Of a DNA stretch of 20,824 nucleotides, positions 2,705-6,293 are shown piece after piece (position 1 is the first letter of the stretch; each line of letters starts with the position of its first letter). A model generated the notes under the pieces. It saw only the letters and a list, made by a program, of their open reading frames with translations. It made no database searches and was not told where the DNA came from. Made by a program: the position numbers and the translations under genes. Source of the DNA: a virus; IMG/VR virus record IMGVR_UViG_3300044620_000508, positions 1 through 20,824 of that record; one strand, given 5' to 3'.

Positions 2705-2728
2705 CCTAAACTTTTCACCACTAACTAC

Positions 2729-2754
2729 AGGACCTTTTCAGGTCCTTTTTTTTT
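2729..2754 (+). terminator. intrinsic terminator of the P2 unit
   Basis: AGGACCT (2729-2735) pairs with AGGTCCT (2740-2746) over a TTTC loop, followed by a run of nine T to 2754. Confidence 0.88.
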
Positions 2755-2788
2755 GACCACTAAACAAGGCAAAGCAAACAATCCTAAA

Positions 2789-2812
2789 AAGGCCGTAAAG
2801 CGGCCTTCTTTG
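2789..2812 (+). terminator. second stem-loop, possible backup terminator
   Basis: AAGGCCG (2789-2795) pairs perfectly with CGGCCTT (2801-2807), followed by CTTTGCTTT. Outside the stem, AAAGCAAA (2771-2778) can also pair with TTTGCTTT (2810-2817). The T-run is broken, so termination would be weaker than at 2754. It may be a backup terminator or simply a structured element. Confidence 0.45.
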
Positions 2813-2994
2813 CTTTCGTATGATCTTTGCCTTGTCTTGATATGTCCGGGTTTCTTTGGATCGTTTCTACCTACCTTAAAAACCAAAATAAAAGTAAGCT
2901 TCCAGGCAAGCTATATTTTCAAAATTCTTTTGGCCGGTAAAAAGCTTTCCATTTTTTACCAATGGTATGCATTGGTATTCTTTGGTATTCTTTG

Positions 2995-3136
2995 TTTACA
3001 ATGTATTCCAGTCTATAGACTGTATACCAAAGGAACCAATGCAAACCAGATATACCAAAGGACCAAAGCTTAACAAAGGAATACCAAAGAATCCCAAAGG
3101 ATAAACAGTCTATAGACTGGAATACCAAAGTAAACC
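2995..3136. repeat. imperfect inverted repeat carrying two 14-bp palindromes
   Basis: CAGTCTATAGACTG, a perfect palindrome, occurs at 3009-3022 and 3106-3119. The flanks make the two copies arms of a larger inverted repeat: 2995-3028 aligns with the reverse complement of 3099-3136, sharing GTATTCCAGTCTATAGACTG (also GTATTC against GAATAC on the outer side). The 70-80 bp between the arms is filled with ATACCAAAG words. Paired dyads around short direct repeats are typical of binding sites for a replication initiator or repressor. That role is not demonstrated. Confidence 0.75.
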
Positions 3137-3320
3137 ATAGCTAACAAAAGGAAGAAAGGAAGTAAGGAATACCAAAGGACCAAAGGACCAGAAGAAAGAA
3201 AGGAACCAAAGGAAACAAAGGATCAGAAGGAACCAGAAGGAACAAAAGATCAAAGGAAGGAAAGGAACCAAGGAACCAGGGAACCAGAAGAAAGCCAAAG
3301 GATCAAAGCAAAAAAGAAAG
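3023..3320. repeat. T-depleted degenerate repeat tract (CCAAAGGA / GGAACCA words)
   Basis: The tract is made of overlapping short words: ATACCAAAGGA, GGACCAAAG, GGAACCAAAG, GGATCAGAAGGAACC, GGAACCAGGGAACCAG. Between 3141 and 3300 I count only five T in 160 bases. The words do not repeat with a constant period, so it is neither a simple tandem array nor CRISPR. Left of the first palindrome the same word appears inverted (CTTTGGTATTC, about 2979-2995), so the strand bias flips there. It could be an iteron-like origin, a DNA-unwinding or R-loop-prone element, or a packaging signal. Confidence 0.7.
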
Positions 3321-3614
3321 GTCTGGTTTTTCTTTTTGTACCCATACCCCAAAAAACCCGGATGAAAAAACAGGTTACCAAAGGCCCAAAGTACAATTTC
3401 CGAATGTTGTATAATTTGTATTATGTTAACTAACAGGGTAAAATCCTATTCTTTGGGCCTGAAATACAAGGGTACCCCATGCTCCAAATAAGGCCAGAAC
3501 CTGGGGACCCCCTCCCCCCATCTTCTACCAAATGAAAAATCGGTCCAATGAATAACCGGAGTTGACTGGTAAGCCCTGTATGCCTCTATTTCGCACACAA
3601 TCGAGTTATACCAG

Positions 3615-3648
3615 ACTTTCTCCAGAAAGTGGAGTCAATATACCTTTG
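3615..3648 (+). promoter_or_regulatory. P3, candidate promoter with operator-like inverted repeats, before the 3800 operon
   Basis: TACCTTTG (3641-3648) is a perfect Bacteroidota -7 element, preceded at 20 bp by TTTC (3617-3620), one base off the TTTG -33 element. The -33 element lies within ACTTTC-TCCA-GAAAGT (3615-3630), overlapped by CTCCA-GAAAG-TGGAG. A repressor binding there would cover the promoter. Transcription would start near 3655, giving a leader of about 145 nt. The placement upstream of the morphogenesis genes fits a late promoter. Confidence 0.5.
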
Positions 3649-3654
3649 TAAAAA

Positions 3655-3799
3655 TTGGAAGCCTTGTAGGCCCATTTCTGAAAGAATTTCCAGAGTGGAC
3701 CCTACCCCCCAATTTTAGAAAAATGAAAATGGGGTTTGGTAAAAATAGGCTTTTTGAAAAAAGTATTTACTTTGGGTCTTAAAATAAACAATTTAGACT
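3655..3799 (+). promoter_or_regulatory. structured 5' leader of the 3800 operon
   Basis: CCCC (3707-3710) plus ATTTT (3712-3716) pair with AAAAT (3726-3730) plus GGGG (3731-3734): a nine-pair stem with one bulged A and a nine-base loop. Over longer range AAGCCT (3659-3664) can pair with AGGCTT (3747-3752). No T-run follows the stem, so it is not a terminator. Whether it is regulatory is unknown. Confidence 0.35.
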
Positions 3800-3967
3800 A
3801 TGCCATTGAAGAAAGGATATTCCAGAAAGGCCGTGAGTAGTAATATTCGCAGGGAGATGAAGGCCGGTAGGCCACAGAAGCAAGCGGTAGCCATTGCTTT
3901 GAGTGTAGCAAGGAAGGCCAAGGCGGCCACCGGTAGGAAGCAGGGCCGTAGAACCATGAAGAAATGA
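3800..3967 (+). CDS. small, highly basic KQAVAIAL-type phage protein (55 aa)
   Basis: A 55-residue product with 18 Lys/Arg and one acidic residue (net charge about +17). Residues 16-40 read as IRREMKAGRPQ then KQAVAIALSVARKA, a pattern I know from short phage and mobile-element proteins (possibly the DUF6496 group; name not certain), where GxPQKQAVAIA forms a helix. The C-terminus is another basic run (GRKQGRRTMKK). The charge suggests nucleic-acid binding or packaging with DNA, by inference. It is the first gene downstream of P3. Its TGA overlaps the methyltransferase start as ATGA, so the two are translationally coupled. Confidence 0.75.
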   Translation: MPLKKGYSRKAVSSNIRREMKAGRPQKQAVAIALSVARKAKAATGRKQGRRTMKK

Positions 3968-4542
3968 TGGAGCATTACTACAAGAATCTTGGTGAAGACT
4001 GGTTCAGTTATCCAAGGATATACCGTGGAGCGGTGAAGTACTTTGGTACCGGTAGTACCTTCGTGGAGGTTGGAAGTTGGAGGGGTAGATCAAGTGTTTA
4101 CATGGGAGTTGAGATTGTGAATAGTGGGAAGGAGATAGCCTTGGTTTGTGTGGATACCTGGGAGGGTAGTGTTGAGCATCAGGGATGGGATATTCTGGAT
4201 GATGATGGTTTGTGGAAGGACTTCCAGAAGAACATTGAGCCATTGAAGGGAGTGATTACTCCGGCCCGGATGACCAGTTTGGAGGGTGCGGCTATGTTCT
4301 TTGATAATACCTTGGATTTCGTGTTTATAGATGCGGCCCATGACTACCAGAGTGTGAAGGAGGACATAGAGGCATGGTATCCGAAGGTGAAGGAAGGAGG
4401 TGTGATTAGTGGGCATGATTATCCAGATTGGGAGGGAGTGAAGAAGGCCGTGGATGAACGGTTTGGGAAGGACATGAAGGCCAGGTATGGCTCATGGGTA
4501 CACCAGAAGGGGGCTAAGAAGGATTTTTATAGATATTTGTAA
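3964..4542 (+). CDS. class I SAM-dependent methyltransferase (Methyltransf_24-like)
   Basis: The 192-residue protein has the core of a Rossmann-fold methyltransferase. Motif I, FVEVGSWRGRSS (33-44), binds SAM; LVCVDTWEG (60-68) gives the acidic residue at the end of strand 2; FVFIDAAHDYQSVKEDI (119-135) and GGVISGHDY (145-153) are the IDaaHdY and GGxixgHDY blocks typical of the Methyltransf_24 group. All key positions look intact and the length is complete. The substrate is unknown; relatives act on sugars, small molecules or proteins. There is no DPPY motif, so a DNA methyltransferase is unlikely. The start at 3964 overlaps the preceding stop and the stop TAA overlaps the next ATG, placing the enzyme in a coupled cluster with three small basic proteins. 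A second in-frame ATG follows immediately at 3967. Confidence 0.88.
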   Translation: MMEHYYKNLGEDWFSYPRIYRGAVKYFGTGSTFVEVGSWRGRSSVYMGVEIVNSGKEIALVCVDTWEGSVEHQGWDILDDDGLWKDFQKNIEPLKGVITPARMTSLEGAAMFFDNTLDFVFIDAAHDYQSVKEDIEAWYPKVKEGGVISGHDYPDWEGVKKAVDERFGKDMKARYGSWVHQKGAKKDFYRYL

Positions 4543-4673
4543 TGAAGAAGACCAAGGGGAGTACCGGATCATCCATAAAGGTTACATTTGGCAAACGGAG
4601 AGAGGGTAAGCATAGTAAGTCTAATGGACCAAAGGACAGTAAGGCAAAGAAGTATAAAGGACAAGGGAGATAA
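4542..4673 (+). CDS. very small lysine-rich protein (43 aa)
   Basis: ATG shares its first base with the methyltransferase stop. The 43-residue product has 12 Lys, 3 Arg and only 2 acidic residues, with Ser/Gly in between (KKTKGSTGSS, GKRREGKHSKS, KAKKYKGQGR), so it is probably disordered alone. No domain was recognised. The tight packing (1-nt overlap upstream, 2-nt gap downstream) and the matching composition of its neighbours support a real gene. It may bind nucleic acid or be a substrate of the adjacent methyltransferase; both are inference. Confidence 0.65.
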   Translation: MKKTKGSTGSSIKVTFGKRREGKHSKSNGPKDSKAKKYKGQGR

Positions 4674-4675
4674 TC

Positions 4676-4909
4676 ATGGCAGTAGCTAAGAAATATTCGG
4701 TTAAGTCTGGTGGCAGAACGGTTAAGTTTGGAGCCAAGGGTTATTCCATTGCCCCAGGGACCAAGAAGGGAGATGCATATTGTGCCAGAAGTTCTGGGAT
4801 TAAGAAGTGCAAGAAAGGACCTTGTCCGAATGATTTATCAAGGCAAGCTTGGGGATGTGTGGGAAAGAAAAGTGTGAAGAGTAAGGCCAAAAAGTTTAGC
4901 AGAATTTAG
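4676..4909 (+). CDS. small basic protein with four cysteines (77 aa)
   Basis: A 77-residue, Lys-rich protein. Its core has GDAYCARSSGI (32-42) and CPNDLSRQAWGCVG (50-63), with Cys36, Cys45, Cys50 and Cys61, which could form a zinc site. From memory the YCARSxGI ... NxLSRxxWxC layout recurs in small proteins of unrelated tailed phages, including marine ones; I cannot name a characterised function. GGGAGA about 5 nt before ATG is a Shine-Dalgarno-like site that supports this start. It is the last gene of the 3800 unit; a terminator begins 28 nt after its stop. Confidence 0.75.
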   Translation: MAVAKKYSVKSGGRTVKFGAKGYSIAPGTKKGDAYCARSSGIKKCKKGPCPNDLSRQAWGCVGKKSVKSKAKKFSRI

Positions 4910-4937
4910 GTTTACATGGGTTTGAAATGAGATAAAG

Positions 4938-4965
4938 AGGCCGGTTGATGACTGGCCTTTTTTTA
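4938..4965 (+). terminator. intrinsic terminator of the 3800-4909 unit
   Basis: AGGCCGG (4938-4944) pairs with CTGGCCT (4952-4958, one G-U), followed by TTTTTTT and ATTTC. It ends the methyltransferase/basic-protein unit. Confidence 0.82.
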
Positions 4966-4980
4966 TTTCAATATTTGCAA

Positions 4981-4988
4981 TAATTTTG
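4981..4988 (+). promoter_or_regulatory. possible -7 element upstream of the ParB-like gene
   Basis: TAATTTTG matches TAnnTTTG and comes 16 bp after a terminator, a sensible place for a promoter. At the expected -33 distance there is only the T-run of the terminator, so the upstream element is poor. A transcript starting near 4995 would first read through the stem-loop at 5036-5062. Confidence 0.35.
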
Positions 4989-5035
4989 CATCAAAAGTTA
5001 TTCATAATTGTTTAGTAAAAATGGTGTCTAAAAGG

Positions 5036-5062
5036 GACTGGCCGATGGCCGGTCTTTTTTTT
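5036..5062 (+). terminator. second terminator, in the leader of the ParB-like gene
   Basis: GACTGGCC (5036-5043) pairs with GGCCGGTC (5047-5054, one U-G) around GAT, followed by eight T (5055-5062). It lies 55 nt before the chosen start of the next gene and would be inside the coding region if translation began at the in-frame ATG at 5021, which argues for the later start. It may be a tandem terminator or an attenuator. Confidence 0.72.
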
Positions 5063-5116
5063 GTGTATGCCTTGGAATTTTGGCTTGATTGTAATTTTCT
5101 TTGCAAAAAAAGAAAT

Positions 5117-5839
5117 ATGGAGAAGGTCGCAATAGGTAAGGTTAAGAATAATCCTGATAATCCAAGGATCATCCGGGATGATAAGTTCTTCAAGCTTGTG
5201 AAAAGTCTGAAGGAATTCCCGGAGATGGCGGAGGTGAGGCCAATTGTGGTGAACAAGGACATGGTGGTTCTTGGAGGCAATATGCGCCTTAAAGCCATGA
5301 AGGAGGCCGGTTGGAAGCAGGTACCGGTGGTTAAGGTTGAGTGGGATGAGGCAAGGCAGAAGGAGTTTGTGATAAAGGATAATGCAAGCTTTGGTGAGTG
5401 GGACTTTGAGGATCTTGCAAACAACTGGGATGATTTGCCTTTGGAAGACTGGGGTTTAGATGTTCCTGTTTTTGCAGATACTGAAAAGGATATTCCTTTC
5501 GTGGATACCAAGGAGATAGATGAGGACTTTAAGAAAGGAGATTTGATTGAGTTTGGTGGAGTCCACCGGATTTTGGTTATGAGTAATCCTGATGACAATC
5601 ATCTGGAAACGGTGTTGGATGGAGATAAACCTGGGTTTAGTTCTGCCGAGATGTCATTTACTGAAAGTTTTTTGGATTATTCTTCCTTGGGAGCGGACCA
5701 GTTATTTGCGGCTAATGACTTGGGAATCCGGTATTGTGGGATTGTAGCTACGGCCAAATTGGCTTCAGAAATCGTGGAGGAATGGGTTAAGAAGTACCCG
5801 AAAGAAGAGTTGAGAAGGAATGGTGAGGTAATAGGCTAA
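5117..5839 (+). CDS. ParB-like protein with a degenerate DNA-methyltransferase C-terminus (240 aa)
   Basis: Residues 1-110 form a ParB/Srx-like N-terminal domain: KVAIGKVKNNPDNPR, then VLGGNMRLKAMKEAGWKQVPVV (51-72), the counterpart of the ParB GxHRxxAAxxAG box. In many phages this domain is fused to a DNA methyltransferase. Here the C-terminal half has the linker GDLIEFGGVHRILVM (141-155, compare GDLFxLGxHRLLCGD) and an end LFAANDLGIRYCGI...EIVEEW (196-223, compare LIAAxxxGRxCYGxELDPKYxxVIIxRW). The DPPY position reads FTESF, and the roughly 150-200 residues that should lie between are absent, so methyltransferase activity is not expected. The start at 5117 follows an A-rich leader; an in-frame ATG at 5021 would put the terminator at 5036-5062 inside the gene. 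A terminator overlaps its stop. Confidence 0.8.
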   Translation: MEKVAIGKVKNNPDNPRIIRDDKFFKLVKSLKEFPEMAEVRPIVVNKDMVVLGGNMRLKAMKEAGWKQVPVVKVEWDEARQKEFVIKDNASFGEWDFEDLANNWDDLPLEDWGLDVPVFADTEKDIPFVDTKEIDEDFKKGDLIEFGGVHRILVMSNPDDNHLETVLDGDKPGFSSAEMSFTESFLDYSSLGADQLFAANDLGIRYCGIVATAKLASEIVEEWVKKYPKEELRRNGEVIG

Positions 5840-5855
5840 AAAAAGCCTTTTTTTG
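5833..5855 (+). terminator. terminator overlapping the stop of the ParB-like gene
   Basis: AGGCT (5833-5837) pairs with AGCCT (5844-5848) over an A-rich loop, followed by a run of T to 5854. The TAA stop (5837-5839) is inside the hairpin. The stem is short, so termination may be partial. Confidence 0.65.
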
Positions 5856-5885
5856 CAACAATAAAATCAGAAGACAATCAGTAGT

Positions 5886-6293
5886 ATGGGAAGAGGTAAT
5901 CCGCAGAATCTTTCAAAGTACCAATGGAAGAAGGGACAATCTGGTAATCCGAAGGGTCGGCCAAAGAAATTGCCAGACCTTAAAGAATTGTTAATCAATG
6001 TACTTGGTGATACAAAGGAAGGCAAGACTGCCATGGAGGCCGTGTTGATGTCCATCAGGGCCAAAGCTTTGAAGGGAGACACAAGGGCGGCAGAGTTATT
6101 ACTGGATCGGGCTTATGGTAAACCAAAGCAAGAGACAGATATTATGACCACCTTCACCCAGGTCATCATGCCTTTGCCTCCGGCAGAGGAGGTGTTGGAA
6201 ATTGGTCAGGCAGGAATTGGACATATTGAGTCCAAAGGTACAGAGGCAATCAAGAATAAACTGGAAGAAGAAGATGGGTTCGATTCTGAGTAA
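5886..6293 (+). CDS. DUF5681-domain protein, possible small terminase subunit (135 aa)
   Basis: The N-terminus holds WKKGQSGNPKGRPKKLP (14-30), the hallmark of DUF5681, seen in phage and prophage genomes near packaging genes. A helical core follows: LKELLINVLGD (32-42) and RAKALKGDTRAAELLLDRAYGKP (58-80), then an acidic tail (from about 100, ending EEEDGFDSE). The size (135 aa) and position, before the large terminase but with five genes between, fit a DNA-recognising small terminase; this role is proposed for the family by context rather than proven. The next gene overlaps its 3' end by 20 nt. Confidence 0.8.
   Translation: MGRGNPQNLSKYQWKKGQSGNPKGRPKKLPDLKELLINVLGDTKEGKTAMEAVLMSIRAKALKGDTRAAELLLDRAYGKPKQETDIMTTFTQVIMPLPPAEEVLEIGQAGIGHIESKGTEAIKNKLEEEDGFDSE

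Follow-up and report, generated by a model that had tools for sequence, protein, structure and literature searches.

Iteron-type origins of phages and plasmids, of the lambda ori type, are formed by repeated short words, inverted repeats and AT-rich DNA, and paired phage operators occur at early/late control regions. The locus studied here, in an uncultured bacterial virus (a phage; IMG/VR virus record IMGVR_UViG_3300044620_000508, positions 1 to 20,824; this whole stretch of 20,824 nucleotides is hereafter the window), resembles iteron-type origins in its near-helical word repeats, its inverted repeats and the AT-rich DNA found nearby in two relatives (L016 and L042). It resembles paired phage operators in the presence, by a late operon, of two identical palindromes, with helical register kept in two phages. 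Like intergenic minisatellites, it also contains an array that is quasi-periodic, lineage-specific and fast-changing; unlike in those, the array unit is also present in the conserved neighbouring core. We conclude that the T-poor tract at this locus is a real feature, largely explained as degenerate tandem copies of a 9-bp unit next to a conserved core, a putative control site.

The T-poor tract sits within the biggest non-coding gap of the window (1.1 kb), which separates the early genes (a gp88-family protein, PF17338, and small ORFs) from the late module; both points had been made in the initial annotation. In family scans, the late module comprises phrog_2423, a methyltransferase, a ParB-like protein, TerL and a tape measure protein; TerL was named from its matches to annotated terminases, and the tape measure is an apparent one, called from length and position only. 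Also as first proposed, the tract encodes no plausible protein: the overlapping ORFs in the ORF list of the window have TTG starts or are low-complexity antisense frames, and none of those listed is credible. The same layout, T-poor tract included, is found in a complete relative, G001 (locus L008; 40,669 b, its ends overlapping by 127 b; 40.5 kb; TerL 95%). The features of the gap are as follows (loci of relatives are designated by L numbers):

2705 to 3799, no strand: non-coding gap between early and late genes (ORF list, family scans, synteny with relatives).
2729 to 2754, plus strand: probable intrinsic terminator at the end of the early operon (AGGACC TTTT CAGGTCCT, then T8); L008 has a comparable one after gp88.
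2930 to 2995, plus strand: left part of the conserved core, TTTTTTACC-AATGGTAT and then ATTGGTATTC/TTTGGTATTC words spaced by about 10 bp (Tandem Repeats Finder period 10; aligned in the window, L008, L042 and L016).
3009 to 3022, no strand: palindrome copy 1, CAGTCTATAGACTG, exact (CATTCTAAGGAATG at 4604-4617 in L008).
3023 to 3140, plus strand: right-hand portion of the core, where the array begins, with ATACCAAAGGA words pointing away from palindrome 1 (ATACCAAA at 3024, 3052, 3081 and 3122).
3106 to 3119, no strand: palindrome copy 2, identical CAGTCTATAGACTG, 97 bp from copy 1.
3141 to 3310, plus strand: T-poor degenerate tandem array, about 19 units of 8-9 bp, ACCAAAGGA (Tandem Repeats Finder, self-match lags, wrap-around alignment).
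3308 to 3336, plus strand: inverted A/T repeat at the right-hand border (AAAAAAGAAA ... TTTTTCTTTTT), its T-rich arm kept in L008 and L010 (alignment).
3404 to 3435, no strand: AT-rich quasi-palindrome TGTTGTATAATTTGTATTATGTTAAC, a candidate operator or promoter (sequence comparison).
3503 to 3545, plus strand: most conserved non-coding element, C-rich, GGGGACCCCCTCCCCCCATCTTCTACCAAATGAAAAATCGG (CCCCCTCCCCCC-ATCTTCTACCAAATGAAAAAT; alignment of seven relatives, pattern scan).
3697 to 3760, plus strand: second conserved C-rich element (CCCTACCCCCC-AATTTTAGAAAAATG), with an inverted repeat of the CCCATTTTT...AAAATGGGG type (alignment of seven relatives).

Between 3141 and 3300, a count of the 160 bases gave 5 T, 88 A, 24 C and 43 G, whereas elsewhere in the window no stretch of 160 bases has fewer than 22 T. 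The near-absence of T reported for this interval is borne out by simulation: the lowest 160-base count was 18 in second-order Markov simulations of the window (n=200) and 15 in first-order simulations of the intergenic region (n=1000). The statement that the sequence lacks a fixed period was, however, wrong. Self-match within the array is elevated at lags of 8/9, 17/18, 27, 35/36, 44/45 and 53, and Tandem Repeats Finder detected period-8 arrays in the tract, with units ACCAAAGGA and AAAGGAAC. In a wrap-around alignment to repeated ACCAAAGGA, 142 of the 170 bases of 3141-3310 fit the unit, with a score of 188; when these bases were shuffled, scores were 39 +/- 12 and reached 70 at most. The tract thus consists, beyond what its composition would give, of head-to-tail copies of one unit with a quasi-period of 8-9. 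This unit contains no T, which accounts for the T-freeness of the tract and makes selection against T unnecessary. Among the substitutions away from the unit, 5 of 24 are to T, where 8 would be expected under equal changes (p=0.14); the copies mutate to T at a roughly neutral rate, and the counts are also compatible with weak selection against T. The missing T is a by-product of the repeat unit and needs no special function; a striking strand asymmetry can be the ordinary outcome of a short tandem repeat.

A function of the T-free strand as such, as an R-loop or as an unstructured, U-free RNA with a protein or the ribosomal 3' tail as its binding partner, is therefore a very improbable reading. 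What speaks for it is the excess of G over C in the tract (43 and 24) and the occurrence of AGGA 15 times, compared with 3.5 in shuffles, the AAAGGA words being Shine-Dalgarno-like; the GGA words, however, follow from the unit just as the T-freeness does, and the tract is absent from close relatives. Nor does the tract RNA fold better than shuffles (z 0.27 and -0.93) or match an Rfam family, and only the palindrome core folds; the skew, folding and Rfam tests support neither the R-loops first suggested for the tract nor a structured regulatory RNA. R-loop origins are described for phage T4 (PMC3016281); the idea of an RNA-DNA hybrid is shared with the skewed tract, but here the skew is explained by the unit. 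We give next to no credence to a U-free, AAAGGA-rich tract RNA or an R-loop acting directly in the early-to-late switch or the start of replication, as a decoy or primer RNA of a kind undescribed in phages.

The comparison with relatives that the initial annotation had called for gave a divided answer. The tract is present in G001 and missing from L016 and L042, which retain the left core and lack the twin palindromes as well; at the early/late junction, L020 has other low-complexity words. Of the loci compared, only two had a tract that, like that of the window, combined scarcity of T with very low complexity: G001, and L020, where the words differ. At sites aligned between the window and L008, the core and downstream sequence diverge by 19% and the tract by 38%, with several indels; the tract thus changes at roughly twice the rate of the flanking sequence. 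These observations, together with the roughly neutral substitution to T and a different, A-poor array on the left side of the core in L008 (4249-4481, with an 8/16-bp unit, GTCACCTGGCTTCCTG), would fit a non-functional minisatellite that arose by slippage in an unconstrained gap, a reading to which we give a little less than even credence. It accounts less readily for the sharing of the array word with the conserved core and for the recurrence of low-complexity arrays at this junction. In L020, low-complexity arrays with different units lie at 1031-1560 and 4656-5130, at or near the early/late junction.

The core, on the left of the tract, was left out of the initial annotation. It extends from about 2930 to 3130 and is formed by TTGGTATTC words at a spacing of about 10 bp and by the two identical 14-bp palindromes; the word is found in inverted orientation (TTTGGTATTC) at 2966-2995, to the left of the tract. 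The two CAGTCTATAGACTG copies are the sole perfect 14-bp palindromes in the window. The ATACCAAA/TTTGGTAT sequence (word or complement) has six occurrences in the window, each of them within 2981-3176. Since windows simulated with the second-order model contained 2.6 such words on average, what stands out is how closely they cluster rather than how many there are. When 2940-3140, 200 bases that include the core, was folded as RNA, z was -6.24 relative to shuffles, because the two palindrome copies and their flanks pair with each other. The left core with its words about 10 bp apart was found in four phages (the window, L008, L042 and L016), the spacing being weaker in L008; L042 (genome G009) carries 4.6 copies of GTATACCTTA with period 10.

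In G001, both palindromes read CATTCTAAGGAATG, at 4604-4617 and 4690-4703 of L008. From the window to L008, CAGTC-N4-GACTG has become CATTC-N4-GAATG in both copies, a stem pair changing from G-C to T-A, and the two copies are 86 bp apart, compared with 97 bp in the window, a difference of 11 bp or about one helical turn. Thus, in these two phages, duplicated dyad sites co-vary and their register is kept, the register being drawn from this single spacing difference. The identity of the palindromes could also come from recent duplication or gene conversion, instead of from a shared ligand.

With phased word copies to one side, inverted ones to the other, and twin palindromes that change together in helical register, the core is a plausible candidate for a control site of replication or of late gene expression. 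The explanation that we favour, at about even confidence, is that the tract is a decayed array of a 9-base word beside a core that resembles a protein-binding site and would control the start of replication and/or the late operon. The ACCAAAGGA array would have grown rightward from the conserved core by repeat slippage. A phage-encoded dimeric DNA-binding protein would sit on both palindromes and on the neighbouring words and, once bound, would start replication and/or activate the late operon, the first position of which is 3800. The array would most likely consist of spare, weakened copies of the word, or of filler, its lack of T being inherited from the unit, and may itself be without function.

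If the core and the array were a replication origin, an initiator would bind the phased words as iterons and nearby AT-rich DNA would unwind. The words follow each other at near-helical, approximately 10-bp spacing (TTGGTATTC type in the window, L042 and L016, less clearly in L008), and they are flanked by the two AT-richest 60-bp stretches of the L016 contig (511 and 604) and by two of the AT-richest stretches of G009 (14205 and 14333). In neither the window nor G001, however, does the core rank with the stretches richest in AT. Unlike in iteron-type origins, the AT-rich stretch is thus not kept in these two phages, the core lies outside any initiator gene, and the period of the T-poor array (8-9 bp) is not helical; that the DUF6291 protein is the initiator is a guess. 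The DUF6291 gene of G001 has 11-bp AAGCAAA-type repeats that resemble an origin inside an initiator gene, which argues against an origin in the core, whereas the DUF6291 protein of G009 is without the repeat-bearing linker, so that the origin of G009 may not lie in that gene. In a distant relative, L193, TATCGGCAAAAATGCC repeats followed by AT-rich DNA lie at 1590-1670 in a probable coding region; this array too looks like an origin within an initiator gene and speaks against one in the core, its location in a gene being apparent only.

Cumulative GC skew, suggested at the outset as a check, has its minimum in G001 at the second palindrome. When 25150-26060 was masked, the minimum moved by 3.7 kb to 22014, within a wide plateau of low values: its position in the tract was due to the bases of the tract itself. 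A skew extremum, which would support an iteron origin without strictly defining one, is thus lost from the tract after masking, and the skew is not decisive as an origin marker. On balance, we consider an origin at this locus somewhat unlikely. Of the proposal that a repeat-reading protein acts here, perhaps at an origin, the idea of a cis-acting site suits the core, with its phased words and twin palindromes, and an origin is possible; the asymmetry in T does not point to function. In the window (3751-6250), GC skew climbs to values between +0.24 and +0.49 in the first late genes before dropping to about +0.1.

The gap could also hold the early-to-late transcription switch, with twin operators, activator sites in phase and, somewhere from 3000 to 3800, a late promoter; this is a tentative reading, of less than even probability. 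The site is placed between the early terminator and the late operon, and the gap contains several conserved non-coding elements and carries paired palindromes in register. Two promoter-like sites, TTTG-N-TAnnTTTG, are present upstream of early genes, at 160 and 860 (the consensus is of Bacteroidetes type), whereas the gap contains no TTG-N-TAnnTTTG and sigma-70-like sites at chance level only; a different late start signal is therefore expected. The absence of any recognised promoter consensus from the gap, beside the putative sites, also weighs against a switch, as does the inversion in several relatives of the AT-rich quasi-palindrome at 3404-3435. In lacking a consensus promoter the locus is unlike paired phage operators; it is so too in that no repressor or activator was matched to the palindromes, for which an operator role is predicted.

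L042 carries the block at 3390-3454 inverted (83% over 65 bp), and shorter stretches match in inverted orientation in L016 and L010. A perfect 10-bp inverted repeat (AGGCCCAAAG/CTTTGGGCCT; 3382-3391 and 3451-3460), of a kind found in 24% of simulated gaps, flanks the block in the window, and the block is a possible invertible promoter segment. A pattern scan with the quasi-palindrome TGTTGTATAATTTGTATTATGTTAAC returned mostly AT-rich chance matches. In the seven relatives aligned, little non-coding sequence is as well conserved as the two C-rich elements, and the second directly precedes the first late gene (late operon from 3800); they may perhaps serve in packaging or as a late leader. With the terminase gene about 4 kb downstream, a cos or pac packaging site in the gap, perhaps at these elements and not in the tract, is conceivable, but we consider it improbable: the contig ends that fall near the tract (L009, L010, L011 and L019) are explicable by assembly breaks in repeats, and the 127-bp end overlap of G001 lies elsewhere. 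A partition site for the ParB-like gene is unlikely; no ParA was found among the matched families, several genes being without a match.

Upstream of phrog_2423, a widespread gene, no comparable tract, T-poor and of low complexity, was found in 80 other contigs, and the gp88 neighbourhoods of other phages contained no homologous tract. INPHARED contained no near-identical phage, its TerL matches being below 60% identity; a TerL search of 84,980 host genomes gave no match, and our literature search found no matching published description. Attention thus moves from the tract to a compact and better conserved core with twin palindromes, a candidate replication or late-switch site in an uncultured phage group to which none of the GenBank phages searched is closely related. 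A small cysteine-containing protein encoded at 4676-4909 of the window is 95-97% identical among the relatives, the other proteins of which are far more divergent, and is widespread in IMG/VR.
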